64,000 bases of DNA from Alphaproteobacteria bacterium (GTDB lineage Bacteria > Pseudomonadota > Alphaproteobacteria > Micavibrionales > Micavibrionaceae), in NCBI GenBank assembly GCA_021776025.1, contig JAJFGR010000018.1:108601-172600 (forward strand). The letters run 5' to 3'. Position numbers and translations under genes: made by a program. Below, piece by piece: positions 2,272 through 63,532 of the stretch. Under the pieces are notes generated by a model. It was not told where the DNA came from, ran no database searches, and was given only the letters and a program-made list of their open reading frames with translations. The first letter of the stretch is position 1; each line of letters begins with the position of its first letter.

Positions 2272-2427
2272 TGCTCTTTTTGCAGTTTTGTTGCCGTTCC
2301 TTACGAAAACTTATCCCCGCTATCCCCGTTGTTTTTTCGGGTTTTTCGCGGAATGACTCGGAAAATTGCAGAAGAACTCTACACTTAACGTCACAAGAAT
2401 CACTGTTTAAATGAGGAGACACGCCCC

Positions 2428-3510: not shown

Positions 3511-3543
3511 ACGAATTCACTGCGTAAGCCAAGAAAATGAAGT

Positions 3544-3589
3544 CGCCGAATTTTCCGTCTCAACCCGAGACCTTTCGGCGGCTTTTTTT
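3544..3589 (+). terminator. Terminator between convergent nrdB and ilvA
   Basis: An outer stem, CGCCGAA (3544-3550) with TTCGGCG (3574-3580), encloses a second small GTCTC/GAGAC hairpin and is followed by GC and seven T. Confidence 0.75.
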
Positions 3590-3600
3590 GTGTTGTGTTA

Positions 3601-10517: not shown

Positions 10518-12326
<1,809 letters not shown>

Positions 12327-12656
12327 TTATAGGTAATAGGTATCAGGATCCATATCGCGGATCTCAAGTGTTACTGCGCATTCTGGCGAAACAGTTTCTT
12401 TCATCACGGTATGCAGAGCATCACCGAATTTCTTTTTCGTCGGTCCATCGCGACCCGCTAGGATTAAAAGCGTTGCATGAAGCATTTGACCATTCAAACC
12501 TTTATCTCCAACCACAGCGTGATTGAGAAGCGTTGCACGGGTTTTTAAGCGCGCGCGTTCAACGCCTTGTTCGACCAATGCTTCGTGCATATCTGGAAGT
12601 AATTGCGGGATTTGTGCTTCAAGAGATTGAGAATATTCAACAATAATATGGGGCAT
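12327..12656 (-). CDS. 5-carboxymethyl-2-hydroxymuconate isomerase-like tautomerase
   Basis: This 109-residue protein has Pro2, which would become the N-terminal catalytic proline after Met removal as in the tautomerase superfamily. The overall sequence (PHIIVEYS start, LL-x-x-x-H, ALLNHAVVGDKG-like middle) fits the CHMI/HpaF subfamily, which normally works in homoprotocatechuate breakdown. No other aromatic-degradation gene is nearby. It lies directly between the TPP riboswitch and thiC, so a thiamin-linked or stand-alone role is inferred. AAAGGA, 9 nt before ATG, is the ribosome site at the 3' end of the riboswitch. Confidence 0.82.
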   Translation of the reverse strand: MPHIIVEYSQSLEAQIPQLLPDMHEALVEQGVERARLKTRATLLNHAVVGDKGLNGQMLHATLLILAGRDGPTKKKFGDALHTVMKETVSPECAVTLEIRDMDPDTYYL

Positions 12657-12664
12657 GGTCTTTT

Positions 12665-12739
12665 CCTTTCCCTACGAGGGTGCTAGCCCTACAGGTTCGA
12701 GGCGTGTTTCTCAGCCACATTCAAGCAGCACCGCCAAGG
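12665..12739 (-). promoter_or_regulatory. TPP riboswitch (THI element)
   Basis: Read on the minus strand, the leader holds GGTGCT, CTGAGA, CGAACCTG and the closing GTAGGG-AAAGG, the conserved blocks of the thiamin-pyrophosphate riboswitch in the right order and spacing. A CCTT/AAGG end pairing (12736-12739/12665-12668) can form the basal stem P1. P1 overlaps the Shine-Dalgarno of the tautomerase gene and no T-run terminator follows, so translation control by ribosome-site occlusion is the likely mode. Confidence 0.9.
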
Positions 12740-12814
12740 TTTTTGTATGGATGCAAAGTGGCAGAAATAAAAAGATATTTCAAGGCCATATAGGTTTCAT
12801 GTTAAAATGGTCTT

Positions 12815-46790: not shown

Positions 46791-47438
46791 TTAGTTAATG
46801 GGAAGATCCCATTCCATGCCAACACGGAATTCATGGCTGTCGTAGCCTATTTCATGCGGCCCTATTTCAATATCACTGAACGTATCAAGATAACGATAGC
46901 CGGCTGTAAAGGCTAGATCAGGGTTATAGCGGAATTTAGCGCCCGCGGCGATATTCCAGATGAAACGGGAATCTTCGCTGGATGTGCTTGATATTAGGCT
47001 GCTGCTAACCTGTCCTTCGTGCCAGCCATAGCCTAAACCACCACCGACATAGGGTTGAATGGACCAAGGCACATCGAAATCATAATAAGCATTTGCTGAA
47101 AGAATTTTTGTTTTTAGATTGTCGCCTACGGAGATTGTTCCTACACCGGAAACATCTGCATCAGAAATGTCAGCCTTACGGTAAGAAAACTCACCCTCCA
47201 GCCGAACCTGCTGTGATAAACGAAAGCCAAGGGCGCCAGCGAAGGATTCGGCGTTGCTGAAATCAAAATTACCGGAGCTGCCAGTCGCGGTGTCTTTGAA
47301 TTCTTGCTCAGCAAAAACATTGAGGCCGAGATAGCCTGCAAGATAGAAGCGGCTAGTCTGCGCTTGTGCGGACAGAGAGAGACCTGTGATGAGGACTGCA
47401 CAAAGCGCAAGCGCAGAGAAAAAATGCATTTTTTTCAT
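46791..47438 (-). CDS. Outer-membrane beta-barrel protein (opacity/OmpA-like porin)
   Basis: This 215-residue protein has a signal peptide (cleavage after AQA at about 24) and alternating amphipathic strands typical of an eight-strand barrel. It includes YLGLNVF, YVGGGLGYGW, AAGAKFRYNPDLAFTAGYRY and a C-terminal strand FRVGMEWDLPIN. ATG 47438 directly precedes the signal peptide; the longer ORF is not supported. The role is unknown. Its own terminator follows. Confidence 0.82.
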   Translation of the reverse strand: MKKMHFFSALALCAVLITGLSLSAQAQTSRFYLAGYLGLNVFAEQEFKDTATGSSGNFDFSNAESFAGALGFRLSQQVRLEGEFSYRKADISDADVSGVGTISVGDNLKTKILSANAYYDFDVPWSIQPYVGGGLGYGWHEGQVSSSLISSTSSEDSRFIWNIAAGAKFRYNPDLAFTAGYRYLDTFSDIEIGPHEIGYDSHEFRVGMEWDLPIN

Positions 47439-47505
47439 GGTGTAAACCGATTTGAGACTATTCAAGAAAAGAAAGAGAGAAAGGACACGCAGCCCCTTTA
47501 AAATA

Positions 47506-47536
47506 GCAAAAAACGGGCCTAAAAGAAACCCGCTTT
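47506..47536 (-). terminator. Terminator after the 206-residue unknown gene
   Basis: A CGGG/CCCG stem (47529-47532 with 47514-47517) is followed on the minus strand by six T. Confidence 0.6.
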
Positions 47537-47565
47537 TAAATTTCACGTGTTTGATGCGTTTATTG

Positions 47566-48186
47566 CTACGAAACCGGCGTTTCAACCTTCACAGGCAGGT
47601 CGGCAGCGATTGGCTCATCATCGAGCATTTCGATCATTCCTGTGGGCTGCACAGCAAAATTTGCGATAAACAGGGCGTTTGAGTAGAAAACCACCGCATC
47701 ACAGAGGTAATGGCCTTGCTCATTGACACCTTCGAAGGTGGCCGGGCGGATTGTGCCCTCAATCACTGAACGTGTTGTTTCATCCATTTCTGTGGGCATA
47801 TTGGAATCTTCCATGCTTTCAGCCACATAAAACGGACCTTCTTCACCACGAACGAAGAAACAGAAAAAGCGCAGATATTCGAGAACATTTTCTTCATTCA
47901 CCTTAATCGGCGCTTTGGCATTAACTTCATGGATTGGCGGAGAGGTGCCGTTCAGACGGAATAAATTCCCCTGATCGGTCAGGTAATAAATGTTGAGCTT
48001 TGGATTGGTCCAATTTGGGTCTTTAACGCGGATGAGAGCCACCTGGTCATAGAAAGGCAGCATGCGCCACTCAACCTGCGTGCTTTCAGCTTTGACGTGG
48101 TATTTACCGTCAATTGGATTAATCTGCTCGAGAAATCCTGCCAGCTCTTCGCCCTCAACGGCGTTCCAGTTATTATCGTGGTACAT
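47566..48186 (-). CDS. Hypothetical cytoplasmic protein
   Basis: This 206-residue acidic beta-rich protein has no signal peptide or membrane segment. I do not recognise a family. The central WRMLPFYDQVALIRVKD and IYYLTDQGNLFRLNG segments suggest a small barrel or double-psi fold. It is monocistronic, bounded by terminators. Confidence 0.62.
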   Translation of the reverse strand: MYHDNNWNAVEGEELAGFLEQINPIDGKYHVKAESTQVEWRMLPFYDQVALIRVKDPNWTNPKLNIYYLTDQGNLFRLNGTSPPIHEVNAKAPIKVNEENVLEYLRFFCFFVRGEEGPFYVAESMEDSNMPTEMDETTRSVIEGTIRPATFEGVNEQGHYLCDAVVFYSNALFIANFAVQPTGMIEMLDDEPIAADLPVKVETPVS

Positions 48187-48409: not shown

Positions 48410-51400
48410 TTAAAGAGCTTGTGACCCGCAGTTTGCTGTATCGTTCAAGCTTTCTGTTGGGTCGCTGGAGAAATTGTAGTTCACCGGACCGTCTACAGCA
48501 GCGTTCAGGACATCGCCCCAACATGCAGCGTCTTCGCCACCGGCTGCCGGTTCGATGTCGGCTACGCCTTCACCTTCTCCACCAGCTGCAGGCTCGATAC
48601 CGGCAACGTCCTCACCAGCGAATGGCTGGATACCAGCAGGGCCCAATGGACCAACTGATGGCAATCCTGTAACCCTTAGGTTCAAACCAGACAGACCGGA
48701 GCCGAACGGACCAAAGCGTGAGAAGAAGTCTTCAACATTATCGATGCTTTGTGCGGCTCTACCGACAAAGATCTGGCCACGGCCATTTACAAGTGAATCA
48801 TCCGCATCAAAGAGACGATCTTCAATATCTTGCAGATCACTTGGGCTCAAGATGCCACCCTGATTTGCTGGAATTAAACCATCCCAGTTGGCCATTGTAC
48901 CGTCGATCTCGATCACACGTTGTGCCGGTGTCAGGATGCCGTCGTCGCGTCTAAGAATTGCGCCATCTTCGAAGCGTACGTAGTAAGCCTCGCCGACATT
49001 ACGATTGATAAAGCCACTGAAGATTGTTCCGCCCAGCGTTTCATCAACGATGGTCAGGCTCTGAGGTTTGTACTTCTTCGCCAGTTCAAACTGCATGCCT
49101 GTCACATAGTCATGAGTAGGATTACCATAGTGATCTGTAGGCAATTCATAGTCCGGCGTTACGATGAAGCGGTTCGGACGAGATTTATCAGAAACATCAA
49201 TCCGGCCACTTTCAAAGCGTGCACCTGTTGGGTTGTTGATGAAGGTGTTGCCTTTCAGGACAACATCGCCATGACCGTAACCATTCACATGCAGACCATT
49301 CCAACCTGAGTTTTCGACTGTGTTGTCGAAGATATCAGAGTTGAAGAAGCCATGATATTCGTAACCATACTCGTTATAGATATTATCACCATCAAGGGTC
49401 TGAATATCATCCTGAGGACCTTTTTCTACACGACGACGTTTTTTATTCTGGGCAACGAGCAAGATACCATTATCTCCAGCGTTCAGAATTTCGTTACGAT
49501 CAACCAGAAGATCGGTCGTGTTGTGGAAGTAGCCACCTTTGTTAAGGGACTGACCTTGACCGCGTCTTTGTTTCTTGGCGCGGACTTCGATACCGTCACT
49601 GGCAACGTCTTTCACTTTGTTACCAACGATTTCGATGTCATAGCCGTAACCGTAGCCTTCACCACCGGAGAAACCAGCAACATCGGTTATGGTGTCACCA
49701 TGATGGAAGTCATAGATATTGGTGATACCGCGAACATGGATACCATCAGCGCCATAACGCTCATCGCCGCTGGTGTAGTGGCTGTAATCATCACCTTCAT
49801 AGCCGTAATCCATCATTAAACCGGCATTCTTAACGCGGTTATAAGAGATACGGGTCCGACCGGCATCGTTTACTTCGATACCATCATCAGCAGTGTTTTT
49901 GATTTTATTGTGGTCAATGACAACTGCATATGGTGAGAAACCGTTTTCTGTTATAACACCCGGCAGTGCACCAAGGCTGCCATATACATTGCTGACATGG
50001 ATACCATCGGCATCGCTATAACGGTGATAACCATAATAGTCATCGCCTTCATAACCTTCGTCATAACCGTAATCCATGTAACCAGCGTTACGGATTTTGT
50101 TACCTTGGATCAGCGTAGATTCTGAATCGAGAACCTCGATACCGTCATCTTCTGTTCTCTTCACATTATTCCCGAGAACATCAACAGCGTAGCCGTAGAA
50201 GCCGCCTTCGGATGCACCACCAGCAACGCTGACAATAACACCGTTATCAAAGACACCGCGAACATGGATGCCATCGGCACCATAACCGTCGCGCTCCCAT
50301 TCTTCCTTATTGCCTTTGTGATCGCCGTAATCGCCATCATAACCGGCGTCACGAACGCGGTTACCCTGGATCAGCGTGCGGCCTGTACCATAGTAGAAAC
50401 CGTCCTGATTTTTGTGATCCCAAGGATAACCGTAGTGATGATACTGGTCGCCAACGACTTCGATACCATCATCAGCCGTTTTCTTAACGCGGTTGTTCTT
50501 GATGATCAGGCTGTATTCATAAGGGTTGAAGTCATGATTGCCTTCATAGGATCCGACCAGCGGAGGAGGCGGTTTACGACGATCATTTGCCTCAATGTTG
50601 CGGGCATGAATACCATCGGCACCATATTCATCGCCGTTGCCATAGCGGATGTGCTGATACTCTTGCTCATCATAGTTTTCCTGTACGCCTTCTTCTATGA
50701 TGGTTTCTTTATCATGATGGCCGTGGCCATTCCGGATGGATTTGACACCGGCATGCTTGACTTTGTTATCGGCAATCAGAGTGCGGCCGGTACCATTATA
50801 CCAGTCATTGTCCCAATCAACCTGTTCGTTTCTGCCGACAACTTCGATGCCGTCATCCGCGGTTTTGGAAACCTTGTTGTTGTAAACAACCAAGCTATAG
50901 GCACCCAGCGGACCGTATTGGCCATCATACCCATCGCCGTAGCCGTGGCCAGAATCGTAGCCGCCCTCGGACTTCCAGTCATCATTCCAGTCATCATAAC
51001 CAGCAAAGATGTTCGTCGCGCGGATACCGTCATGGTTTTCATAGCGGTCAAACTTGATCCCTTTAGGTGTTGGCAGATGATCGCGAATCAGAGGATTCAT
51101 TTTCTGGCCGTACCACAGGGTTTCGCGTCCTTCGTCGTTGAACAGACCTGAATCAAGGATGGCCGTAAGACCATAAGTCCCTCTGTATTCATAGTCCCAC
51201 TTGGTTTTATCGATACCGGCATAGCTGACCTCATTATTCTGGATCAGCGTGCGGCCTGCATAGCTAGCATCAATGCCATCGCCGCCTGCCATTTCAACGG
51301 TGTTTCCGCTGATTTTCAGAGCCAGGCCGTGCGGACCATAACCATGGATGTTCTCGACATTAATGCCGTCGCTATTGCCCCAGTACCATTTCTTCTCAAA

Positions 51401-54400
51401 GAAGAAATCAGGAATAGGTGCTGGTCTACCGCCAACATAGGTGGTCATAGCCGTTTCATTGATCCAGTCGATCATGTCGGTGAAATTCTCCACGCCCAGA
51501 CCAGCGTACATGATGTCGTTTCTGGCGATTCTGGTTGCGCCACTATTTGTGACCTGAATGCCGTGCCCGCCAGTAAAGGCCACTTCGTTTTTGGAGACAT
51601 CGACAGCCCAGCCACCGAAGTAATCATTGTAGTAGTCATAATCCTTTGACTCCCAGTCATCGCCATCTTCATAGCCGACATCCTGTACATCGATACCTTC
51701 GTCACCGGCAATAAGGATCTTGTTATGCTTGATCTTGGTTGCATAACCGTAATCAACGAAGATTCCGTCATCGCCAACCATGCTGACCGCGTTGTGCTTG
51801 ATAACGCTGTAATTAACATTACCGACATCAATACCGTCATCATTGACGTGACCGACATCGTTATGAGCGATCAGCGTAGAGTGACCACCATCGACCTGAA
51901 TACCGTCATCTTGTGCAAAGAAGACGAAGTTATTGTCGATGACAGAACCGGCAGCGTAATAATCGTAACCACCGTAGCCACCGAAGTAGTCGCTGTAGTG
52001 CTGGTATCCGTAACCATCACCGTAATTGCCACCATACTCGCTACCGTAGGAACCATGTCCGACATTGTTGATGTCGATACCGTCAGCATCTTCAGGACTA
52101 TCATTATGCCAAGGCATAATGCCGGTTTTTCCGACCCAGTTGTGGGTAACGCGGATGTAGTCGCCATCGGTCGCTGAAATACCATCATCGCCTGTGAACT
52201 CGATATCGTTCCAGCCGACATAAGCACCGCCGAAGTTTTCAAGGTGAATACCATCATGGTTGTCACCGTAAACAGCATCAGGTGCCGGAATGACGTGCTT
52301 CAGGTAAGTCACGATGTTGCCGTCACCAAACAGGGAGTTCAAGCCGTGGTAGATAACCTGTTGTTTATTGTCATGCAGATATTCAAGCTGGTCAAAGACT
52401 GTGCCCCAGCCCCAGAAAGTGCCGTCGATACCAGCGTAACGGATATTGTTGCCGTATTCTTCATTCGAACCGCCGATGTAGCCAGTGCCAAAGTTAGCAG
52501 CATAGATGCCGTGACCACCCGTCCAGGAAACGTTATTGCCGTAGACCTTCAGGTCAGGGCCGTAGCCATAACCGTAAGCGCTGTGGACATTATCAACATG
52601 GATGCCGTCGCCATCGCCCCATTCAAACCCAACACCGTCGTAGTTGATGAAGAATTCATTGTCACCGCTCAGCAGGTCTTTAAAGGCCAGACCGGTTGCG
52701 AAGACATCATTGTAGGCGATGCGGGTCATGCCGCTGTTGGTCACGGAAATACCGTGGCCACCATTCAGCGCAACCTCATTGCCGTGAATATTAACGGCAG
52801 GGCCGTAATAATCAAAACCGTAGCCTTCACTACCCACAACCCATGGTGCGCCGCCGCCGTAGATACCATCCACGTGGATGCCGTCCTCACCGGTCAGCAG
52901 GACTTTATTATCGGCTATATTGGTGAAGTAGCCTTCAATTGTTTCGCCGCCGTAAACAGCGATGCCGTTGCCGTAAGTCAGGCCGACAAGGTTATCGGTG
53001 ATATTGGTGAAGTAGGTATCGCTCATGTGGATGCCGTCGCCGTAAGTCAGGCCGACAATGTTGTCGTAAACATTTGTGTTAAGGCCGTATTCACCGCTGA
53101 TGCCATGACCACCGGTCAACAGAACCAGATTGTTGTGAACATTGCTGACGCCAGTTTGCCACAGTGAAATACCGTTCTGGCCGGTTCCTACCACCTTGTT
53201 GTGGTGAATATTGTGGCCGGTGCCGCTTTCAACGCGGATTCCATTCAAAGTGATATCATAAATGTTGTTGTAGGAGATTGTGACATTATCACTTGGGTTC
53301 ACCAAAATGCCGTTCGCCACCGTGTTTTGAATGGTGTTGTTTTGAACCAGCGCATTGTTGGAGCCGTTAATGTGAACACCGTCCTGACCGATGTTACCGG
53401 CGCCGCCTAACAGACCGACAAGGTTATTTATAACCTGAACAAAGGCGCTGTTTTCTGCGTGGATACCGTCACCATTATTGGTGTTATTCACCGTATTGGT
53501 GTCAACAATAGTGCCGGCACTGTTAAGAATGCGGATACCGTGGAAATCCGGAATTCCAAACGTGCCGGTATTGTCAGTTGTGTTGTTGCTGACTGTCACA
53601 CCGGAAGAATTAAAAATCTGGATGCCGTGACCGGACGTATTGGAAACATCATTATTATTAAACAGATTTGTTCCGCTTAGCCCGACGGCCTGGATACCGT
53701 TTCCGTTGGCATTATTCACTCCTGTTGTATCAACGATATTGTTGGTCACTGTCAAATTGGCGCTGGAGACTACGTTCATGCCATGAAGGCCGGCATTTTC
53801 GATCCCATTGTTGTCAATTAGTGTGCCACTGCTGCTACCAAGCTGAATACCATGGCGCGTTGTATCCTTAACGGTATTGCCTGTGATGATGCCGTTCGTG
53901 GAACCTGCGTATGCAATACCATCTTGACCAATGTTATTATCGCCGCCCAATGTCCCAACCAAGTTGTTGGTTGCGCTGTTATTATCGCCGCCCGTGACGT
54001 GAATGCCATCGATGCCTGTATTGTCAATCGTGTTGTTATCAACTGTCACATTGCTGGATGGGTTGACCAAAATACCATTTTCATCAACGCTGGTTATCTG
54101 ATTTCCGGAAATCGTGGAGCCGTTGGAGCTCTTGTTGTAGATACCATTTGCAGTCGTATCGATGATCTTGTTATCGGAGATAATGACCCCAGTGCTGCTG
54201 TCAGCTTCGATGCCATCGCCATTGATATTGTCATCGCCCGCGGTGGTCGTGGCCGCCAGAGACGTATAGCCAATGACGTTGTCCTTGATCTCATTGCCTG
54301 TCGTTGTTGCAGGGGCTTGATTACCCTGACCGCCGACATGGACACCGTCACCACCAGTATTGCGGATCAAGTTGCCTTGAGCCAGCGTGTCATTGACGCG

Positions 54401-57400
54401 CTCAAGATGGATGCCGGAAAGGAACCAGTTTGGTCCTCCTTCGCGCCCAGTGTCGTTGATGTCATTGGACAAAATATCAAGGTCGTTACTGTTCCAGGCA
54501 TAGATTCCGAGCCTGTCAACGCCATTGATAATGTTGGATTGTACCAGTGCACGGTGTGATCCGCCCATTACGGCAATACCGGACGCGCCTGTTACATTGT
54601 CGATGGTGTTTCCAATAATTTGTCCGTCAGTAGAGCCAACAAACTGAATACCGTCCCAACCGATATTGTCGATATCATTAGTCAGCACCTTGTTTAGGAT
54701 ACCGCCACCAACTTCAACGCCGTTGTTTCCAGTGCCGTTAATAACATTGCGCTGAACGGTCACATTGCTGCTGCCGGTCACATCGACGCCGTCATCGAAT
54801 GAATTGGTGATGGTGTTTTCATCGCCAGCATTCGGACCACCGACCAATGTGCCGTTGCTAGACGCTACGTTTATACCGTCTGCGCCAGCATTGCTGATCA
54901 CGTTACCTTGGATGAAGCTGTTCGGGCTCGGGTTGATCGAGATACCGTTGGAAACAGTTTCTGTCACTGCGTTGTCAGAAATATTTGATCCGGCAGAGTT
55001 GTTAATATCGATGCCTTCACCTTTGATGTTGTCAACGCCCGCAGAAATCGTGCCCGCAAGATCGGTAAAGCCGATGGCGTTGTTTGTAATTTGCGCACCG
55101 GCAGAATTGTTGACTTCGATACCGTCTTTACCACCACCGGAAGCACCTGTGTTGTAAACGATGTTGCTATCAATGTTGACGCCAGCGCTGTTATCAATAC
55201 GAACACCCTGACCAAGTGTTGTGTCGTGAACGGTGTTGTTACTGACGCTCAATGTTCCGCCGACAGAGTAAATGCCTCTGACGCGGGTGTTTTGAACCGT
55301 GTTGCCATCGATCGTCACATTGGTGTTGGCCGCAGCGACGTTACCCGGATTGAAACCAGCGTGGATACCATCATTGCTAGTGGTGTCAATGCGGTTATTT
55401 GTGATTGTTGTAAAGCCCGTATTGGTGTTGGCAACGATACCGCTCCAAGTCGTGGCCGTACCCGCGTTGATAACATCGTTATCGTCGATAGTCACGTCGC
55501 TGGAATTATGGGCCCAGACACCGCTACGACCCGTGTTGGTCGTGTCATTGTTCTGAATCAGCGCTGTATTGCCGCGAGCGAACCGGATACCGTCTGTACC
55601 GATATCGTTCAGCACGTTGCCAGTGATCGTGATGTTATTGCTGTCCAGGGACAGAATACCGTGATCGCCGGTATTGCTGATATTATTGTCAGTAATGAAA
55701 GATCCATGGCTCGGGTTGATCGAGATACCGTTGGAAGTAGTTTCTGTGATCGTGTTGTTAGAAATAGTTGAACCGGCTGAATTATTCAGATCAATACCTT
55801 CGCCGTTCACGTTATCAACGCCAGCAGATGTTGTGGCCGCAAGATCGGTAAAGCCGATAGCGTTACCTGTGACCTGTGCGCCCGCGCTTGTGTTGACTTC
55901 GATTGCATCATCCGCTGTTGAATGAACAATATTGTCTGTAATCTCAAGGCTGATTTCATTGCCGGAGATGTAAATACCGCGCCATGTCGTCGTACCGTTC
56001 ACGAAGTTGGCGTTAATTGTAGTGTTGTTGTTGCCGCCAACCCACATGCCGCCCCAGTTATTATTCAGGATATTGCCCTGAATAAGCGTGTTCAAGCTTG
56101 CGCCTAGGGCGATCGCGGAACGGTGCGATTCATTGACCGTGTTGTTCAGAATGTCTGAATTTGATGTAGCAAAGAGGGAAATACCATCCCAGCCGGAACG
56201 CTCAACTAGGTTGTCGCGAACCGTGTGGCCTGTGCCGCCTGTGACCTGAATGGCGTTATTCTGAAGACCGACAACTGTGTCTGTCACCGTGTTGTAACGG
56301 GTCATGGTGTTGTCACTGGTGACAATCTTAATGCCGTGGATACCGCCTGTTACGACGTTACCAATACCAAGGCCGTCAGGCGCAGGCTGGTTTGTGCCAT
56401 GTGCGCCAATTGTGGCAAAGTCACTGTTTTCAACCAAAATTCCTACAGCGCCGGCAGGGTTAGTGATGCGGTTAAACCAGATATCACTGTCATTACCGTA
56501 ATTTGTACCACCGCTGTTTTTCAGGTGAATACCAACATTGGCCGCATTCGTGACATCATTGTTGTAAATCCAGATATCTCCGTTGTTGTCAGCGAGAATA
56601 CCGGTATTGCTGTTATCAACTGTGTTGGCGCGGACCCTTACAGCGTCGCTGTTTGTGACCTCGATGCCAGTTTCAAAATCATGGACATCATTGCCATCGA
56701 CCACTGTGCCGTTGCTGCTGTCAACATCGATACCGATGATGGAATTGCCGAACAAATGGTTGCCGGAGATTTCTGAGCCGGCACTGTTATCAAGGGTAAC
56801 ACCATAATCAATTTCGGAGATCGTGTTGCCTCTGACTTTTGAGCTTGCGCTGTCAGTTACCTGAACGCCGATTTCGCCGTCCGTGATCATATTATTGTCA
56901 ACGATCGATCCGGCGCTGTTATCAACATCGATGTTGATTTCATCATGCTCGGTGATGATATTGGCGAGAATTTGAACGCCAGAACTGTCTGAAACCTCAA
57001 TGGCTGTTTCATCGGAATCATTCGTGACGGTGTTGGTGTCAATAATCAGACCGGCAACGCTCGTGCCCTGAATACCTTGTCTACCACTATCCGTAACGCT
57101 GTTATTGCTAATGGTAATGGCTGAGCCGCCTTCAACTTCAACGCCCTGATCATCGGAATCATCGACTGTGTTCCCATCGGCAAGACCGCCTATGACGCCG
57201 CTGAATTCAATGCCGTCTTCATCGGCGCTTGTCACCGTGTTACCGGTCACAGTGATATTGCTGGCTCCGGCAACATGAATGCCATCATCGTCGGCATTTG
57301 TCACCACGTTGTTTGCAATATTAATCAAATTGCCAAGAACGGCGCGAATGCCGTTATCACCGGCATTTGCCACCAAGTTATTCAAGATATTTACATTTGT

Positions 57401-60058
57401 AGCGCCGCTCGAAAGAACACCGTTATCGCCCTGGAACTGGAGAATGTTGTTGGAAACAGTTACATCATCAGCGCCAACAATTTCTACACCATCATCGCCA
57501 CCCGTTACAGTGAAGCCATCAATAGTTACATTGTTGCTGGTGACAAGGAAGCCCGGAGAGTTTGGAATCACAATAGATTCAGGGCCGCGCACTCCATTTC
57601 CGGCAATACCGTTATTGGCACCGCTGAGAAGGAAGTTATCTTCGGAAACGATGACAGACTCATTATACGTTCCAGCATGAACGTTGATCGTGTTCAGGCC
57701 GCTGCCTGTATTTTCAACCGCGTCAATGGCGTTTTGGATCGTACTTTCATCGAATTGTTCAATTTCAATTGTACCTGTACCACTTGTATTCAGGCTGTCA
57801 GCATCAACACTGAAGAAGCTGCTGTCGTTGTTGAAATCAATATTGCCACCCTCAGCATCAATGTTAGCGCCTGCGTCGAGGAATACGCCGTGGCTAGCAT
57901 TGCCACCGCCGGCGGAACCGGTTTCCACGGTAATGTTATTGCCGTTTGAATCAATGGATGATCCGGCATTCATGATGAAATCACCGAACGTTCCACCATC
58001 AGCATCAGCGTTAAACAGCGCATCGCCAAAGGTTTCAAGGCTGGCTCCGGCGGCAAAGATGATGTCATCTTCCGCATTGACTTCGAGTGTATTAGTAAGG
58101 TTCGTGCCCATAAAGGTCACATCAAACGGACCGGAGGGAATTTCTGTACTCACGGTAGTCTTAGCGACGTGTGTTGTATCGGCATTATCAATGAAGATGT
58201 TATTATCCGTACCACCAGCCTGTAAACCAAACACCAACTCACCAGCTAAAATACGGTTCAACTCAGCCTGGCTAACATGGAAACCTCCATTATCATCCCC
58301 AACAGATATATCACCATCAACTGAACGCGTAAGGCTCACAGTCCCTGTACCGGCATCAATAGATGAACCGGCTGCGATATTTATATTATCAACGGTGATA
58401 TCAACATCGCCGTTACCGGTATTGATGGTGCCTGTTCCAGCGCCGCCATTAGGCATCCACAGCCAGCTACCGTCACCGGTGCCGCGGGACGTAATTGTGG
58501 CGTTACCACCAGAAGTGCTAACTGTCGCACTGTTTTTGATGTCGATATCATCAGAAGCGATTGCGCTGAAATTCCCACCATTGGTGTTGATGTTGGCGCG
58601 GATAAATACATCGGCATCGCCGCCACTAAGATCAAAGTCAGCATCCAGATTAATATTTAGACCCAAACCTGTGTCAGTAATAGAATCGTTAATTGTTATA
58701 TCGTTATGGGCATTTACATTAAAAGAAACACCGGTCGCGGTTGTCACCGTATCGATCGAATCAATAACGCGCAGATTACCGGCATTAACGCCAGAGCCGT
58801 CTGTTTGCGCTGTGAAACCTCCGTTTATACCAGCACTATTGAGGAGCCCTTCAATAAACCCTGTAGTTATAACACCTTCACCGATAGCACAACTTGCCGC
58901 AGCATCAGCAATACACGCATTAGTCGGGTCAACGAGATATTCTCCATTTTCACCAATAGCAGCCGCGCCATCAATGATGCCGCTTTCGCGGAAGGACGTT
59001 TCAATGAAACCGTTTTGGCCAAGTGCGGACAGCATGCCGTATGAATATAATTTGTCACCCCAAGCGACGATAGAACCGGCCTGGTCATCACCATCAACAG
59101 TGATCTCAGATGTATCGGCTAGCTCAACAACTTCACCATCAATATCAACAGAGCCGCCATCTGCACCGGAAGCATCAAGAGTGCCAGAGACTTTAACTGT
59201 ACCGTGCTCGCCACCAGAGAGAATAATTGTCCCGCCAGACTGAGTCGCAGACGCAACTGTGACCACGCCATCAAGATTGATGACGTTATCGACAGCGTCT
59301 TTCGCAGCAAGAGCTGTTACCTGAACAGTTCCGCCTTCGGCTTCGATTCTGCCGGTATTTTCGATCAATGCGTCAGCGAGTTCACCAGAAACGGCAACCT
59401 CAAAAAGGCCATCGCCATAGAAATCAAGAGTCGCCGTTTCGGCAGACGCCAAAACGACTTTACCCATTCTTGCTCTGATCACGCCGTTGTTTGAAACATT
59501 CGGGCTGAGGAGAGCCGCGATGCCTGCGTCGGCAACTGTGATCATGCCGTTGTTAGTTACACCAGCGCCGGAGAAATTCCCGAGCTTCAGTGCGCCGCCA
59601 GCCATAAATTCAGTGCGGTTTAAAAGTTCACCATCGGACATGCTGACTGACAATGCATCGACAGAGCCGCCTGCACCTGTGATTACACCATTGCCATCGA
59701 GGACATGACATGTGCCAGCACAGTTTAAGTTACCGAAAATAAATGTTGGGTCAGCTTCGCGGTCAATCGCGACGAGGTTACCTGCGCCTACGTTTACTGT
59801 CCAACCGGCGTTGATGTCGAGGTCACCCTCAACAATCGCGCGTTCAGTGTTCAGCCCCAAATTCGTTGTATTGGTCTGAGAAAGATCCGTAGTGGTGCTT
59901 CCTGAAGTTGTCGTGAGATCAACCCAGTTATCAGCTTGAGCGGGACCTGCCGAGAGCGCAAGGAGTCCTGCAGCTGTTAAGGCCGACGTGGCCAAAAGTT
60001 TGTTGGGTGATATTCCGAAACGGTTCGCAGCGTTTTTGCGGGCTTTGTAAGTACTCAT
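48410..60058 (-). CDS. Giant two-partner-secretion exoprotein with parallel beta-helix (TpsA-like)
   Basis: This 3,882-residue secreted protein is the largest gene here. A signal peptide (cleavage after AQA at about 42) leads into a haemagglutinin-type secretion region (about 43-330) with typical text such as VSNNGVIRARMGKVVLASAETATLDFYGDGL. Residues about 775-3600 are a right-handed parallel beta-helix built from roughly 22-residue PbH1/NosD coils of the form 'G-I-x-V-x-N-S-x-x-V-x-V-x-x-N-x-V'. It opens with a DUF1565-like INVHAGTYNESVIV. From about residue 2390 the coils carry Gly/Tyr/Asp/His-rich insertions. The C-terminal 180 residues end with two tandem EPAAGGE repeats and Cys3846/Cys3877. 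I count only six cysteines. GGAAGGAAG supports ATG 60058. It faces away from its likely TpsB. A surface adhesin or matrix fibre is inferred; no enzymatic motif is seen. Confidence 0.85.
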   Translation of the reverse strand: MSTYKARKNAANRFGISPNKLLATSALTAAGLLALSAGPAQADNWVDLTTTSGSTTTDLSQTNTTNLGLNTERAIVEGDLDINAGWTVNVGAGNLVAIDREADPTFIFGNLNCAGTCHVLDGNGVITGAGGSVDALSVSMSDGELLNRTEFMAGGALKLGNFSGAGVTNNGMITVADAGIAALLSPNVSNNGVIRARMGKVVLASAETATLDFYGDGLFEVAVSGELADALIENTGRIEAEGGTVQVTALAAKDAVDNVINLDGVVTVASATQSGGTIILSGGEHGTVKVSGTLDASGADGGSVDIDGEVVELADTSEITVDGDDQAGSIVAWGDKLYSYGMLSALGQNGFIETSFRESGIIDGAAAIGENGEYLVDPTNACIADAAASCAIGEGVITTGFIEGLLNSAGINGGFTAQTDGSGVNAGNLRVIDSIDTVTTATGVSFNVNAHNDITINDSITDTGLGLNINLDADFDLSGGDADVFIRANINTNGGNFSAIASDDIDIKNSATVSTSGGNATITSRGTGDGSWLWMPNGGAGTGTINTGNGDVDITVDNINIAAGSSIDAGTGTVSLTRSVDGDISVGDDNGGFHVSQAELNRILAGELVFGLQAGGTDNNIFIDNADTTHVAKTTVSTEIPSGPFDVTFMGTNLTNTLEVNAEDDIIFAAGASLETFGDALFNADADGGTFGDFIMNAGSSIDSNGNNITVETGSAGGGNASHGVFLDAGANIDAEGGNIDFNNDSSFFSVDADSLNTSGTGTIEIEQFDESTIQNAIDAVENTGSGLNTINVHAGTYNESVIVSEDNFLLSGANNGIAGNGVRGPESIVIPNSPGFLVTSNNVTIDGFTVTGGDDGVEIVGADDVTVSNNILQFQGDNGVLSSGATNVNILNNLVANAGDNGIRAVLGNLINIANNVVTNADDDGIHVAGASNITVTGNTVTSADEDGIEFSGVIGGLADGNTVDDSDDQGVEVEGGSAITISNNSVTDSGRQGIQGTSVAGLIIDTNTVTNDSDETAIEVSDSSGVQILANIITEHDEINIDVDNSAGSIVDNNMITDGEIGVQVTDSASSKVRGNTISEIDYGVTLDNSAGSEISGNHLFGNSIIGIDVDSSNGTVVDGNDVHDFETGIEVTNSDAVRVRANTVDNSNTGILADNNGDIWIYNNDVTNAANVGIHLKNSGGTNYGNDSDIWFNRITNPAGAVGILVENSDFATIGAHGTNQPAPDGLGIGNVVTGGIHGIKIVTSDNTMTRYNTVTDTVVGLQNNAIQVTGGTGHTVRDNLVERSGWDGISLFATSNSDILNNTVNESHRSAIALGASLNTLIQGNILNNNWGGMWVGGNNNTTINANFVNGTTTWRGIYISGNEISLEITDNIVHSTADDAIEVNTSAGAQVTGNAIGFTDLAATTSAGVDNVNGEGIDLNNSAGSTISNNTITETTSNGISINPSHGSFITDNNISNTGDHGILSLDSNNITITGNVLNDIGTDGIRFARGNTALIQNNDTTNTGRSGVWAHNSSDVTIDDNDVINAGTATTWSGIVANTNTGFTTITNNRIDTTSNDGIHAGFNPGNVAAANTNVTIDGNTVQNTRVRGIYSVGGTLSVSNNTVHDTTLGQGVRIDNSAGVNIDSNIVYNTGASGGGKDGIEVNNSAGAQITNNAIGFTDLAGTISAGVDNIKGEGIDINNSAGSNISDNAVTETVSNGISINPSPNSFIQGNVISNAGADGINVASSNGTLVGGPNAGDENTITNSFDDGVDVTGSSNVTVQRNVINGTGNNGVEVGGGILNKVLTNDIDNIGWDGIQFVGSTDGQIIGNTIDNVTGASGIAVMGGSHRALVQSNIINGVDRLGIYAWNSNDLDILSNDINDTGREGGPNWFLSGIHLERVNDTLAQGNLIRNTGGDGVHVGGQGNQAPATTTGNEIKDNVIGYTSLAATTTAGDDNINGDGIEADSSTGVIISDNKIIDTTANGIYNKSSNGSTISGNQITSVDENGILVNPSSNVTVDNNTIDNTGIDGIHVTGGDNNSATNNLVGTLGGDNNIGQDGIAYAGSTNGIITGNTVKDTTRHGIQLGSSSGTLIDNNGIENAGLHGMNVVSSANLTVTNNIVDTTGVNNANGNGIQAVGLSGTNLFNNNDVSNTSGHGIQIFNSSGVTVSNNTTDNTGTFGIPDFHGIRILNSAGTIVDTNTVNNTNNGDGIHAENSAFVQVINNLVGLLGGAGNIGQDGVHINGSNNALVQNNTIQNTVANGILVNPSDNVTISYNNIYDITLNGIRVESGTGHNIHHNKVVGTGQNGISLWQTGVSNVHNNLVLLTGGHGISGEYGLNTNVYDNIVGLTYGDGIHMSDTYFTNITDNLVGLTYGNGIAVYGGETIEGYFTNIADNKVLLTGEDGIHVDGIYGGGAPWVVGSEGYGFDYYGPAVNIHGNEVALNGGHGISVTNSGMTRIAYNDVFATGLAFKDLLSGDNEFFINYDGVGFEWGDGDGIHVDNVHSAYGYGYGPDLKVYGNNVSWTGGHGIYAANFGTGYIGGSNEEYGNNIRYAGIDGTFWGWGTVFDQLEYLHDNKQQVIYHGLNSLFGDGNIVTYLKHVIPAPDAVYGDNHDGIHLENFGGAYVGWNDIEFTGDDGISATDGDYIRVTHNWVGKTGIMPWHNDSPEDADGIDINNVGHGSYGSEYGGNYGDGYGYQHYSDYFGGYGGYDYYAAGSVIDNNFVFFAQDDGIQVDGGHSTLIAHNDVGHVNDDGIDVGNVNYSVIKHNAVSMVGDDGIFVDYGYATKIKHNKILIAGDEGIDVQDVGYEDGDDWESKDYDYYNDYFGGWAVDVSKNEVAFTGGHGIQVTNSGATRIARNDIMYAGLGVENFTDMIDWINETAMTTYVGGRPAPIPDFFFEKKWYWGNSDGINVENIHGYGPHGLALKISGNTVEMAGGDGIDASYAGRTLIQNNEVSYAGIDKTKWDYEYRGTYGLTAILDSGLFNDEGRETLWYGQKMNPLIRDHLPTPKGIKFDRYENHDGIRATNIFAGYDDWNDDWKSEGGYDSGHGYGDGYDGQYGPLGAYSLVVYNNKVSKTADDGIEVVGRNEQVDWDNDWYNGTGRTLIADNKVKHAGVKSIRNGHGHHDKETIIEEGVQENYDEQEYQHIRYGNGDEYGADGIHARNIEANDRRKPPPPLVGSYEGNHDFNPYEYSLIIKNNRVKKTADDGIEVVGDQYHHYGYPWDHKNQDGFYYGTGRTLIQGNRVRDAGYDGDYGDHKGNKEEWERDGYGADGIHVRGVFDNGVIVSVAGGASEGGFYGYAVDVLGNNVKRTEDDGIEVLDSESTLIQGNKIRNAGYMDYGYDEGYEGDDYYGYHRYSDADGIHVSNVYGSLGALPGVITENGFSPYAVVIDHNKIKNTADDGIEVNDAGRTRISYNRVKNAGLMMDYGYEGDDYSHYTSGDERYGADGIHVRGITNIYDFHHGDTITDVAGFSGGEGYGYGYDIEIVGNKVKDVASDGIEVRAKKQRRGQGQSLNKGGYFHNTTDLLVDRNEILNAGDNGILLVAQNKKRRRVEKGPQDDIQTLDGDNIYNEYGYEYHGFFNSDIFDNTVENSGWNGLHVNGYGHGDVVLKGNTFINNPTGARFESGRIDVSDKSRPNRFIVTPDYELPTDHYGNPTHDYVTGMQFELAKKYKPQSLTIVDETLGGTIFSGFINRNVGEAYYVRFEDGAILRRDDGILTPAQRVIEIDGTMANWDGLIPANQGGILSPSDLQDIEDRLFDADDSLVNGRGQIFVGRAAQSIDNVEDFFSRFGPFGSGLSGLNLRVTGLPSVGPLGPAGIQPFAGEDVAGIEPAAGGEGEGVADIEPAAGGEDAACWGDVLNAAVDGPVNYNFSSDPTESLNDTANCGSQAL
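54261..55864 (-). repeat. Three-copy higher-order module inside the giant gene
   Basis: Starts of one conserved block (TDLAATTSAGVDN-like, followed by a GID/NNSAG coil) lie at about 55843, 55060 and 54261 on the plus strand, that is 783 and 799 bp apart. Each period is about 261-266 residues, roughly twelve beta-helix coils. The first two copies are close in DNA (GATCGGTAAAGCCGAT in both); the third is more worn. This shows past segmental duplication within the ORF. Confidence 0.7.
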
Positions 60059-60508
60059 TTGTTTCTTCCTTCCTCAAATCAGAAACGTTGAACATATATA
60101 TAGTCAGGTTTTGTATTTTGGCTTTGATATTTATCAAGTTTTTTATCAAAGCATCGCACACATAAAAGGTGCGCGATAGTCCATGCAGCTTTCTATATAG
60201 AGACGATATACGCAGTTTTTTAAGCGTTTTACAAGTTTTTATTAAGGAAAATTTAACTTTTTTCTGGATCTTTTACTGGAATCTATTCTGTAAAGTAGAC
60301 TCACCCTTTCTTATAAAGCTTCTCTAATGTTTCAAAAAATTTAGCAGATAATAGAAACAATGAAAGAATCACGCCTAATAACGGCTACGGGTTGATTGTG
60401 TTATAAAAATAGCGTACAAATTTGAGTGTAAAAGTACTTTTCTTTTCTGAGTATTCTGCTATAGCTTCACATTATATACGTATTATTGATTTTAAAGGTT
60501 GATGACCA
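60059..60508. promoter_or_regulatory. Divergent intergenic region of the tpsA/tpsB pair
   Basis: This 450-bp AT-rich region between the divergent transcripts must hold both promoters. It contains no ORF of note. A perfect 12-bp palindrome AAAAGTACTTTT lies at 60430-60441, about 70 bp before tpsB, and could be an operator. AAAGG precedes tpsB ATG by about 10 nt. I cannot assign -35/-10 boxes with confidence. Confidence 0.5.
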
Positions 60509-62254
60509 ATGAATACATTGAAGGCAATTAGGAACGGCCAACGCGCCGTTTGCGCAAGTGTTGTAGCATTATCTTTGCTACTGAGCACAAGCGGTGTTTC
60601 TCTAGCCCAGCTTCCTACCACGGATCTGGAGAACGCAGCGCAAGGTCAGGCGAGTGCAAGCCGTATTCAAAGCCAGCTGCTTGAGAAAGATCCGTTGCGC
60701 CCAGCCGGTCCTAAAATTGAAGTTAAGGATTTAGTGCTACAGGATATGCCGCCAAATGCGGCAAAAATTCGTTTTAATCTTAATCAGATTCAAGTCGAAG
60801 GTGTTGGGGCTTATAAGGAGGCTGATATTCGCCACCTCTATGCCGACAAGCTTGGTACAAATGTTTCGCTGGCCGATATGTATGCAATCGCCACTGCGAT
60901 GACGAATCAATATCGTAATGACGGCTATATTTTGACGCAGGTTATTGTTCCGCCGCAAACAATTGATGGCGGCATTGTGACCTTGCGAGCCGTTGAAGGA
61001 TTTGTTGATCAAATTGTCGTTTCAGGCCCAGGCGAGCCAGAAAGTGCGCTGAGCACAATTCGCAGCTATGCGGGTCGCGTTCGTAGTGATGGTGCATTGA
61101 ATGTTGAAGATCTGGAAAAATTCCTACTGCTCATTAATGACCTGCCCGGCATACAAGCCCGCAGTATTTTGAGCCCGTCACGTACGCAAACAGGCGCATC
61201 TGATTTGCAGGTTATTGTAGAGCGCGATCCGTTTGATGCCTTCCTTGGCATTGATAATTTCGGTAGTCGTTATTTAGGACCGATTCAGGTTACTGGTGCG
61301 GCTGCTCTTAATTCGCATTTTGGTCTCAATGAGCGTATTTCAGCGCAATTGGTTGTTGTTCCTGATAGCGCCGAGCTTTACTTTGTTTCTTTTGGCTACG
61401 ACCAGCCACTAGGTACAGCCGGCACGGTTTTTAAAGGCTTATTCAGCCACTCAAATACAGAGCCAGGCTTTGATCTCGATCAGTTCGACGTCAATGGTAT
61501 GTCTAATTTTGTAAGCGTTGGCGTTGAGCATCCCTTTGTCCGTTCACGTGAACGCAGCATTTATGGCCATGTATCACTTGATTGGCGCGATGTAGACAGC
61601 CGAAACATTCTGGAGCCGACCCGTGAAGACCGCATTCGCGCACTTCGTATGGGTGGACGGATTGAGTTTCTTGATAATCTGTTCACAGCCGGTGTCAGCA
61701 CAATCAGTGTAGAGGTTTCTAAAGGCTTGGATGTTTTGGGCGCAAGTAGTGAAAATGATATTCGCCTTTCACGCCCGGCTGGCGACCCTGAATTTTCAAA
61801 AATTACAGCTGAAGCACAGCGTTTACAGCGCGTCACATCTAGCGTTAATATTTTTGTTGGTGCTCGTGGACAGCTGGCGAATGCTGCTTTGCTCTCCTCT
61901 GAAGAATTTGGCGTAGGCGGTATTAATTCGGGCCGCGGGTTTGACCCTTCTGAAATTGTTGGTGATGACGGTGTTTCCGGTAAGGTTGAAGTACAATGGA
62001 ACGAGCCAACCCCAATAAACTATCTGGAAGACTACCAACTCTTTGGTTTCTACGACATTGGTAAAGTCTGGAACGATGATGCTACGATCTCAGATGATGA
62101 TGAGTCGCTGGCTTCCGCAGGATTTGGTATGCGCGCAGAATTGCCTTCTGAGATAAACGCTTCACTGGCAGTTGCCTTTCCATTAACACGCGATGTTCAG
62201 ACACAGCGCGATGATGGTGCAAAAGCTTATTTCAGTTTGAATCGTGAATTTTAA
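60509..62254 (+). CDS. ShlB/FhaC/HecB-type two-partner-secretion transporter (TpsB)
   Basis: This 581-residue outer-membrane transporter has a signal peptide (cleavage after SLA at about 33). One or two POTRA domains lie at about 88-240 (FNLNQIQVEGVGAYKEADI, then VTLRAVEGFVDQIVVSG). A 16-strand-type barrel follows, with the substrate-gating loop motif GGINSGRGFDP at about 471-481, corresponding to the VRGY/RGF motif of Omp85-related proteins. The C-terminal KAYFSLNREF ends in Phe, as usual for barrels. The natural substrate is the divergent giant protein, since no other TpsA is near. It is normally co-oriented with tpsA in other systems. Confidence 0.93.
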   Translation: MNTLKAIRNGQRAVCASVVALSLLLSTSGVSLAQLPTTDLENAAQGQASASRIQSQLLEKDPLRPAGPKIEVKDLVLQDMPPNAAKIRFNLNQIQVEGVGAYKEADIRHLYADKLGTNVSLADMYAIATAMTNQYRNDGYILTQVIVPPQTIDGGIVTLRAVEGFVDQIVVSGPGEPESALSTIRSYAGRVRSDGALNVEDLEKFLLLINDLPGIQARSILSPSRTQTGASDLQVIVERDPFDAFLGIDNFGSRYLGPIQVTGAAALNSHFGLNERISAQLVVVPDSAELYFVSFGYDQPLGTAGTVFKGLFSHSNTEPGFDLDQFDVNGMSNFVSVGVEHPFVRSRERSIYGHVSLDWRDVDSRNILEPTREDRIRALRMGGRIEFLDNLFTAGVSTISVEVSKGLDVLGASSENDIRLSRPAGDPEFSKITAEAQRLQRVTSSVNIFVGARGQLANAALLSSEEFGVGGINSGRGFDPSEIVGDDGVSGKVEVQWNEPTPINYLEDYQLFGFYDIGKVWNDDATISDDDESLASAGFGMRAELPSEINASLAVAFPLTRDVQTQRDDGAKAYFSLNREF

Positions 62255-62263
62255 AATTAAGAC

Positions 62264-63532
62264 TTAAGACTTATGAAGAGGCCGCTGTAATGCGGCCTTT
62301 TTTTTGCGTGCTATATGACCGCACAGCCCCGTGACCATCGTTAAAAGGCCCAGCCACCAGCCCTGCCAAAGCCCATAGGATATGCAGGCCGTTACCAAAG
62401 CCATCATGAACACAGACAGGCACAAACGCCGGGCTGGCTCACTCTCAATTCTAAACATGCTGTGTAAAACCAACACCATGGCGGCACATAGCCCTAAAAT
62501 GCCGATGAGGCCAAACTCGATCCAGATTTGCAATACAGCGTTATGGGGATGCAGAACGTGGTCGAGGGGGGTATAGCGCATGGGCGTATTAAAATGCTCA
62601 ATATGGCGGGTAGCTTCAATGCCAAAACCGAAAATTGGGCTGTCCAACGCTTTACGGGCGACGAAATCCCATATTTCCAACCGGTCGGCAGCGTACGCAT
62701 CGGCCAGCCAGGGCATTGTATGAACATAATCTGCAAAGACATTATATAACAACTGCACTAACCATGGCCCAGCAAGAATGCCTGCGCAGATTAGAATGAT
62801 CAGACCGCTTTGCGCCGCTTTTCGTTTAAAAAGAGGGAATGCGAACCAGAATATTCCGGCAACCAGCAAAGCCAAATGTGCGGATTGGCTATCGGTCATG
62901 CAGGCGATAACGATCATAATGAGCAAAAACGACAGCTGCATTAATCGCTTCTTTAAAGCGGAGCATGACGACAGGCTTAAAAATCCCAAAGCGGGCAATA
63001 ACAGCAATGTAAAAGATACAACGGCCCGATTGATAATTGAAAGATTGTAATTGGCCGCATCTGTGCCGCGCCAGGTATGATATAAAAATCCATTCGTCCA
63101 TAATTCAAAAATGCAAAGAAGGCCTGCAAAAATAAGCGCAAGAGGGAAAGCCCAGTATAGGAAAGACGGCCATGATGTGTTTGCGCGCAATACTGCATAA
63201 AGGGCGCAGCCACCGCCCAAAACGCCTACAATTTTTAAACCTCGTTCAAGCGCAAAATCAGGATTCAGTGACCATAAAGCGCTTAAAGCCGCGAGAGACG
63301 CCGTACCCACAGCAATAGCAACGTAAAGAAGACTTAGTCGTGGCCATGACCCGGAAAATATTCGCAGAGCACAAAAAAAGATGATCCCCATTGCCGGAGG
63401 GACAAATCCAAGAGCCCGGGGGGCAACAGTCTGTATGAGCGGCAACAAACAAAGAAGAGCGCAGAATAAAGCCATACCCATCTTGAGGGATGGTGATGGT
63501 GATTTCGGGGTCAATATTTCAGAGCTGGGCAT
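62264..63532 (-). CDS. O-antigen ligase-like (Wzy/WaaL) membrane protein
   Basis: This 422-residue polytopic membrane protein has about eleven hydrophobic helices and the large periplasmic loop with VLHPHNAVLQIWIEFGLIGIL, the HN motif typical of Wzy/WaaL/PglL-like glycan ligases and polymerases. The glycan substrate and acceptor are unknown. No other LPS genes are in view. Its C-terminal coding overlaps the tpsB terminator hairpin, with 9 bp between the two convergent stops. Confidence 0.82.
   Translation of the reverse strand: MPSSEILTPKSPSPSLKMGMALFCALLCLLPLIQTVAPRALGFVPPAMGIIFFCALRIFSGSWPRLSLLYVAIAVGTASLAALSALWSLNPDFALERGLKIVGVLGGGCALYAVLRANTSWPSFLYWAFPLALIFAGLLCIFELWTNGFLYHTWRGTDAANYNLSIINRAVVSFTLLLLPALGFLSLSSCSALKKRLMQLSFLLIMIVIACMTDSQSAHLALLVAGIFWFAFPLFKRKAAQSGLIILICAGILAGPWLVQLLYNVFADYVHTMPWLADAYAADRLEIWDFVARKALDSPIFGFGIEATRHIEHFNTPMRYTPLDHVLHPHNAVLQIWIEFGLIGILGLCAAMVLVLHSMFRIESEPARRLCLSVFMMALVTACISYGLWQGWWLGLLTMVTGLCGHIARKKKAALQRPLHKS
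62279..62305 (+). terminator. Rho-independent terminator after tpsB
   Basis: A 7-bp stem, AGGCCGC (62279-62285) with GCGGCCT (62292-62298), is followed by a long T tract. It lies inside the 3' end of the convergent ligase-like gene. Confidence 0.85.

Follow-up and report, generated by a model that had tools for sequence, protein, structure and literature searches.

A giant two-partner exoprotein combining a predicted NosD-like rod and a CdrA-like tail in a Micavibrionaceae genome

We analysed a stretch of 64,000 nucleotides (hereafter the window) from a 2.3-Mb alphaproteobacterial genome of the Micavibrionaceae assembled in 24 contigs (GCA_021776025.1; contig JAJFGR010000018.1, positions 108,601 to 172,600), which contains the gene of a giant exoprotein of the TpsA type. 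The 3,882-codon open reading frame (ORF) reported in an initial annotation of the window was found exactly where it had been placed, on the minus strand, starting with ATG, without internal stops and open over 11.6 kb. The gene of its cognate transporter, TpsB, lies close by in divergent orientation, and a gene for a LapG-type protease is found on the same contig (table 1). The protein belongs to a real, intact and lineage-wide family of two-partner exoproteins that combine a NosD-like rod with a CdrA-like tail. We lean towards reading it as a beta-helical rod held on the cell surface by a cysteine loop and freed by a LapG-type cut at a PAAG motif. The basis of this reading is the ORF itself, its domains, the TpsB gene, the conserved tail and the LapG-type gene, whose product has an N-terminus matching MshE.

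The two-partner secretion (TPS) N-terminus proposed in the initial annotation was borne out by a match to EtpA over residues 19-334 (E=2.5e-28). With this N-terminal secretion domain and a cognate TpsB gene at its side, the protein is classed as TpsA-type and predicted to be secreted through TpsB. The Pfam TPS model PF05860 matched neither the whole protein nor residues 1-400. TPS domains carry an NPNG motif (PMC5422565), whose likely counterpart, judged by eye, is DGNG in this protein and DRNG in the consensus.

The body of the protein is matched, well above chance level, by the Pfam families Beta_helix (E=5.5e-143) and NosD (E=3e-88). AlphaFold2 models covered residues 1-1180 and 2750-3882. 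The first model, with a mean predicted local distance difference test (pLDDT) score of 88.1 over its whole length, showed a single continuous right-handed beta-helix for residues 43-1180, so that the view of two folds joined in one fibre has to be rejected. In the second (mean pLDDT 64), low-confidence loops break up the coils, and its fold search gave generic beta-helix matches that were left unused. The VIA-align rows concern chiefly residues 765-1164, and a BLASTP search with residues 401-770 matched three ORFs only. The composite earlier proposed, an EtpA-like N-terminus followed by a Beta_helix/NosD body, is right in outline, but the body is no NosD: it scored 99.2 bits against a cut-off of 300 for the NCBIfam model TIGR04247. 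Likewise, the NosD-like part of the helix, put at about 2,800 residues, does extend from residue ~785 to ~3,620. However, dividing 2,800 by 22 overcounts the coils, because Tyr/Gly/Asp-rich inserts interrupt the helix from about residue 2,400 on. By rough estimate, a length of some 60 nm is of the correct magnitude for the rod as a whole. The inserts lie in the part of the rod that would be proximal to the cell, and tyrosine makes up 7.5% of the C-terminal half of the helix versus 0.9% of the N-terminal half. As a family rule this asymmetry is weak, with a higher content in the C-terminal half of 31 of 44 proteins and more than twofold in 18. Inside the gene we found only two families of direct repeats of at least 45 nt, the larger with two copies of 196 nt (79% identity), and three short tandem arrays; the coils have therefore diverged. 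The 196-nt repeat, which corresponds to about three coils, lies at 54925-55120 and 55708-55903 of the window, 783 bases apart.

Table 1. Positions of the main features of the exoprotein locus and of the protease gene (window coordinates unless stated otherwise; residues are those of the exoprotein)
Feature	Position	Strand	Evidence
Giant TpsA-type exoprotein gene P0001, 3,882 aa	48410..60058	-	Intact ORF, Beta_helix/NosD, EtpA match
Signal-peptide-like N-terminus, residues 1-42	59933..60058	-	Sequence; pLDDT <50
Two-partner-secretion (TPS) domain, residues 43-345	59024..59932	-	
Irregular, weakly conserved beta-helix joining TPS domain to NosD-like helix, residues 346-785	57704..59023	-	AlphaFold2; BLASTP
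NosD/Beta_helix-type coils, typically 22-24 residues, residues 786 to ~3,620	49199..57703	-	Pfam, coil spacing, AlphaFold2 (786-1180, 2750-3620)
Tyr/Gly/Asp-rich inserts interrupting the coils, residues ~2400-3560	49379..52861	-	Sequence, composition, low insert pLDDT (2750-3560)
Conserved C-terminal module (GAxFESGxIDLT ... LGxTxFxG ... GLP), residues ~3596-3815	48614..49273	-	Alignments of 11 and 25 sequences
Candidate cleavage site for a LapG-type protease: PAAG at residues 3823-3826 (motif 1)	48581..48592	-	Sequence
Candidate cleavage site for a LapG-type protease: PAAG at residues 3837-3840 (motif 2)	48539..48550	-	Second A and G invariant in 25 tails
Cys3846 to Cys3877 pair, predicted anchoring loop	48428..48523	-	Invariant in 25/25 aligned tails, which were selected for it
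AT-rich spacer of 450 bp shared by the divergent TpsA and TpsB genes	60059..60508	.	Sequence
TpsB-type outer-membrane transporter, 581 aa	60509..62254	+	Pfam ShlB E=4.3e-29, POTRA_2 E=3.4e-18
LapG-type protease, own copy	C10:103714-104640 (L137 5115..6041; PF06035 match at C10:104236), same contig, ~4 kb left of window		PF06035

In the named collection, most records of the nearest TpsB relatives bear the title Alphaproteobacteria bacterium or Micavibrio sp., and one is labelled Micavibrionaceae. From 104 named TpsB loci 80 were kept, and in 57 of these a TpsA ORF was matched by an N- or C-terminal profile. Thirty-six of the 57, delimited by TpsB rank, are called here Micavibrio-type loci (L049-L094, L098, L116 and L127). 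In 35 of them the TpsA lies on the strand opposite to TpsB; the complete open frames range from 1,179 to 3,096 aa, while a further 11 are cut by the end of the retrieved sequence. A search with the N-terminus, in which the best 1,748 candidates were scored, gave 48 other proteins. Beta_helix was found in 45 of them, accompanied by NosD in 44, and the sizes of these 45 go from 2,135 aa, the length limit of the search, to 3,766 aa. At the level of whole genomes, 24 of 37 contain a TpsB relative, that of the window included. The profile of the tail matched strongly (E<1e-20) in 14 of the 37, although the matches of G026 and G034 stop short of the motif and cysteines, and more weakly in eight further genomes. 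Among 289 genomes of the class six matched this profile, three of them strongly; two of these are the genome of the window and a congener.

Micavibrio have been described as alphaproteobacteria and strain ARL-13 as an epibiotic predator (PMC3189940), while the NCBI taxonomy places Micavibrio under Bdellovibrionota. Its kinship with Micavibrio suggests that the organism of the window may also be a predator. A search inside the ARL-13 genome paper (PMC3189940) gave neither the term two-partner nor hemagglutinin, and our literature search found no paper uniting two-partner secretion with NosD. The genome of the window has a second TpsA of 1,883 aa (L026 11809..17457, G000:C2) and a TpsB relative at C2:10192-11634; the tail of this TpsA has no AAG and ends in C-x6-C. 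Four further loci, in records titled Nitrospinaceae, Nitrospina and Nitrosopumilus (L095-L097 and L103), have TpsBs of ~36% identity and TpsAs, two of the four cut, that match the N-terminal profile and not the C-terminal one. In the case of Nitrosopumilus, the title suggests an error of binning.

The initial annotation had missed the C-terminal tail with its AAG motifs and cysteine pair. Conservation in the last 290 residues is above that of the helix, and a Pfam search with the final 293 residues gave no match at E up to 1. The linker of the tail carries [T/P]AAG motifs, commonly in the form (L/V)(A/N)xIEPAAGG, and is followed by the cysteine pair, which is present in 44 of 49 listed proteins, our own included, and absent from P0043, P0047-P0049 and P0005 (the latter partial according to its source). 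A [T/P/A]AAG motif occurs within the last 140 residues of 43 of the 44 proteins with the pair. Pair and motif were found together in 24 of 25 complete Micavibrio-type loci; in 12 complete TpsAs of other lineages the pair was never found and the motif three times. By eye, motif 2 retains both alanines in 20 of the 25 aligned tails.

The significance of such a motif comes from LapG. Proteases of this family cut between the alanines of [T/A/P]AAG in large adhesins (PMC13090378). The LapG of V. cholerae cleaves FrhA peptides, which become insensitive upon the change of PAAG to PRRG (PMC6890996), and in CdrA, itself a two-partner adhesin, LapG cuts a C-terminal TAAG at low cyclic diguanylate (c-di-GMP) (PMC7484184, PMC8295476), although the exact site in CdrA has been called speculative (PMC4694147). 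The genome of the window combines a C-terminal [T/A/P]AAG with a LapG-type protease, as expected for a CdrA-type adhesin released by LapG. Proteases with PF06035 were found in 34 of the 37 genomes, including every one of the 32 with a completeness of 90% or more and a contamination of 5% or less. In 120 homologs of our protease the residues D216, C217, E218, H252 and D267 are each conserved at 1.00, a pattern that agrees with a Cys-His-Asp triad whose cysteine is flanked by acidic residues; it was we who assigned H252 and D267 to the triad. A profile made of 41 of the 120 homologs matched, in its C-terminal half, 4fgo (E=6.8e-30) and 4u65 (E=9.4e-29), which we take to be structures of LapG.

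The most surprising part of the system is a predicted c-di-GMP sensor inside the protease. The N-terminus of the same 41-member profile matched the c-di-GMP domain of MshE (5htl, E=5e-10) as well as PilF/PilB domains. The MshEN signature consists of two 24-residue motifs separated by a five-residue spacer, with a relaxed form for searches (PMC5013675). Residues 18-70 of our protease match the relaxed form with exact spacing and the strict motif incompletely (V for L, P for R, A for G). Two relaxed motifs in tandem with the exact spacer occur in 58 of the 120 homologs and at least one motif in 110, compared with none in 2,400 shuffled sequences. Moreover, among 28 protease frames from 29 fetched loci, with some genes present twice, 25 had at least one motif and 11 had both. 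Elsewhere in the class, 23 PF06035 loci gave 21 frames, all of them without the motif; these frames were picked mechanically, and some are perhaps wrong. Weak Pfam matches in members of the profile were to DUF4388 (19 of 41) and DUF2949 (12 of 41). The MshEN-like part is followed by a hydrophobic stretch, whose best 17-mer, at residue 72, has a mean of 1.84 (above 1.2 in 112 of the 120 homologs) and which ends in a conserved A-x-A (A93 at 0.89, A95 at 0.99). It may be a membrane anchor or a cleavable signal with the A-x-A as signal-peptidase site; because of this ending, the MshEN-like part could act through a membrane anchor or through export of the protease. The genome has eight GGDEF matches, seven of them above the cut-off. 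We found no paper that unites MshEN with a transglutaminase-like domain, and passages from three of the four papers that mention both MshEN and LapG deal with each on its own.

The motif of the tail is also present in a second class of giant proteins. Besides its matches to TpsAs, the tail profile gave 20 weaker places in the 37 genomes, from which we fetched the 10 in non-TpsA open frames longer than 1,300 aa. In all 10 of these giant ORFs, which belong to the same order, a [T/P/A]AAG, mostly IEPAAG, lies within the first 260 residues. T1SS-143 repeats were found in all three that were scanned, though in L166 below the cut-off, and two of the three also match the BapA prefix, again below the cut-off. 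Adhesins of the LapA type keep their N-terminus in the periplasm. In LapA the cut motif is N-terminal as well (PMC4694147). The own genome encodes a giant adhesin of the T1SS-143 type that runs off its contig (L162 7257..13112, G000:C3) and has IEPAAG near residues 179 and 194 of the open frame, a candidate second substrate of the protease. The codons for IEPAAG occur eight times in this genome, twice in the TpsA tail, twice in the type I adhesin and four times in other ORFs, while the reversed pattern does not occur in it. As a genome-wide marker the motif was discarded, half of its eight matches lying outside the two adhesins. IEPAAGG and IQPAAG motifs are also found in an open stretch of at least 661 aa without NCBIfam match at 0.01 (L177 1..1983; G000:C13, ~67015).

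In the release model that we favour, TpsB would export the rod with its N-terminus first. The disulphide-closed tail would be too bulky to leave the TpsB pore, and the rod would therefore remain fixed to the cell, the TPS end being the farthest out. The MshEN-like part of the protease would sense c-di-GMP: at high levels cleavage would cease, and at low levels a cut at the PAAG motifs would free the rod. In this lineage its natural use would be to grip prey or surfaces and release them again. A bolder extension, which we put forward tentatively and think rather doubtful, is that the Micavibrio order has dispensed with LapD and fused sensing into the protease, with a cytosolic MshEN and a periplasmic LapG-type part, so as to form an inside-out switch made of one protein, and that this enzyme frees two unrelated classes of giant fibres for gripping prey through the IEPAAG-type motif, which is C-terminal in the two-partner rods and N-terminal in the type I adhesins.

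Several observations weigh against the release model. A complete relative, L092, is without the tail, and motif 2 has lost its double alanine in 5 of the 25 aligned tails. The two PAAG motifs of our protein are part of a 42-nt tandem duplication (window 48532-48616, 79% matches), and 36 of the 44 proteins have one or more further [T/P/A]AAG elsewhere in their sequence, ours at residue 28. CdrA and HMW1 have cysteine hooks, and the spacing of ~31 in our protein is longer than in those. Additionally, the disulphide of the tail is a guess, since this region was modelled at low confidence. As to the sensor, Pfam gave no MshEN domain match in the protease, and the strict tandem pattern is missed by 62 of the 120 homologs. 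The periplasmic domain of LapD (PF16448, LapD_MoxY_N) was found in none of the 37 genomes nor in the control genomes, other receptors such as those of the DvhD type being unsought; the search itself works, as 58 of 200 genomes drawn from the phylum matched the model. Because the LapD receptor was not found there, we call the system CdrA-like and do not count it as a member of the LapD/LapG systems. Co-occurrence cannot prove the pairing of protease and TpsA, since the protease is present in nearly all genomes, also those without this TpsA, and may act mainly on the type I adhesins. In the 10 adhesin loci only the N-terminal placement of the motif is informative, because they were fetched for matching the part with the motif. 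Finally, IEPAAG alone is not diagnostic, given its four occurrences outside the two adhesins.

Some of these observations would suit another reading, in which the two-partner adhesin remains on the cell or is shed in another way, the tail only capping and anchoring the rod and AAG being part of a disordered, compositionally biased linker instead of a protease site. The linker is indeed modelled at low confidence and has a high content of A, G, P and E, its two motif copies here form the short tandem duplication, and there are the four other ORFs with IEPAAG. Nevertheless, at least one double-alanine [T/P]AAG is kept in all 25 tails (by eye), despite varying length of the linker and although either copy may lose it. 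The 44 proteins have 80 [T/P/A]AAG motifs in 6,160 tail residues versus 56 in the 118,753 residues elsewhere, that is, in about 19 times more sequence, and the motif recurs at the N-terminus of type I adhesins. We thus consider this explanation unlikely, though deserving the most attention among the alternatives.

Less probable still is that the helix is an enzyme, a giant rod similar to polysaccharide lyases or epimerases that digests or remodels the sugars of prey or matrix. The shared beta-helix fold says nothing of function, and at E up to 1 the rod matched only the general Beta_helix and NosD families and no named lyase family. Furthermore, helix matches among relatives have 26-45% identity with partly shifted coils, whereas both ends of the protein align lengthwise.

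Exoproteins of contact-dependent inhibition also belong to two-partner systems (PMC5422565), but a CdiA-type stick with a C-terminal toxin is very improbable here: far from being variable, the C-terminal tail is shared by 24 of the 25 complete Micavibrio-type loci, and no Pfam family was found for the last 293 residues at E up to 1. That the gene is chimeric, or collapsed at its repeats (which the initial annotation had named as a refuting outcome), we hardly credit at all, 24-contig assembly notwithstanding, since the frame is open, DNA repeats are few and other contigs carry relatives that are alike in size and Pfam pattern (P0033, 3,397 aa; P0034, 3,766 aa; P0037, 3,728 aa).

The remaining features of the window can be described briefly. 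In the spacer between TpsA and TpsB a c-di-GMP riboswitch or other known RNA was looked for, with no Rfam match at the gathering threshold, and no sigma-70-like promoters were found in 60000-60560. The sole Rfam match of the window is a thiamine pyrophosphate riboswitch far from TpsA (12652-12745, minus strand), which stands upstream of thiC (10518..12314, minus strand), separated from it by a small ORF. Two genes downstream of TpsA lies the gene of an outer-membrane barrel protein (OMP_b-brl/Opacity, 46791-47585, minus strand), and beyond TpsB that of a Wzy_C (O-antigen ligase) protein (62264-63532, minus strand).

To our knowledge, little has been established about how epibiotic predators hold their prey and let it go. 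If the release model is true, the Micavibrio group gains a concrete, regulated attachment fibre, whose cut site and protease could be tested as purified parts. It would also add, beside LapD and DvhD, a further wiring of c-di-GMP to adhesin release, with receptor and protease in one polypeptide, and the tail with [T/P]AAG and cysteines would provide a sequence rule to spot such fibres in metagenomes.

Among known proteins, the closest solved folds for residues 42-514 are the secretion domains of EtpA, HMW1 and HxuA and the rod of EtpA, but past residue 785 the body resembles the coils of NosD, AlgE and tailspikes. NosD is similar in coil sequence, and both NosD and AlgE-type beta-helices in predicted fold; the TpsA differs in being far longer, joined to a TPS domain and below the cut-off of the NosD subfamily. 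Bdellovibrio MAT fibres (PMC10769870) are likewise displayed by predatory bacteria, but they are trimeric and chimeric, and the likeness is one of description, with no sequence kinship claimed. The CdrA of Pseudomonas aeruginosa (PMC7484184, PMC4694147) shares with our protein TPS-type secretion, a long beta-rich body, a dedicated TpsB, a [T/P]AAG near the C-terminus and a LapG-type protease in the genome. In contrast, CdrA is built of 81-residue repeats instead of NosD-like coils and encoded in a cdrAB operon instead of divergent genes. The TpsA system is further set apart by its cysteines ~31 residues apart, the failure to find a LapD periplasmic domain in the 37 genomes and a protease with MshEN-like motifs. 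With LapA/LapD/LapG and DvhA/DvhD/DvhG (PMC13090378) it has in common large adhesins, [T/A/P]AAG and a bacterial transglutaminase-like cysteine protease with D-C-E, H and D; the c-di-GMP receptor is LapD (EAL) or DvhD (HD-GYP) in those systems, and an MshEN-like motif within the protease gene here.
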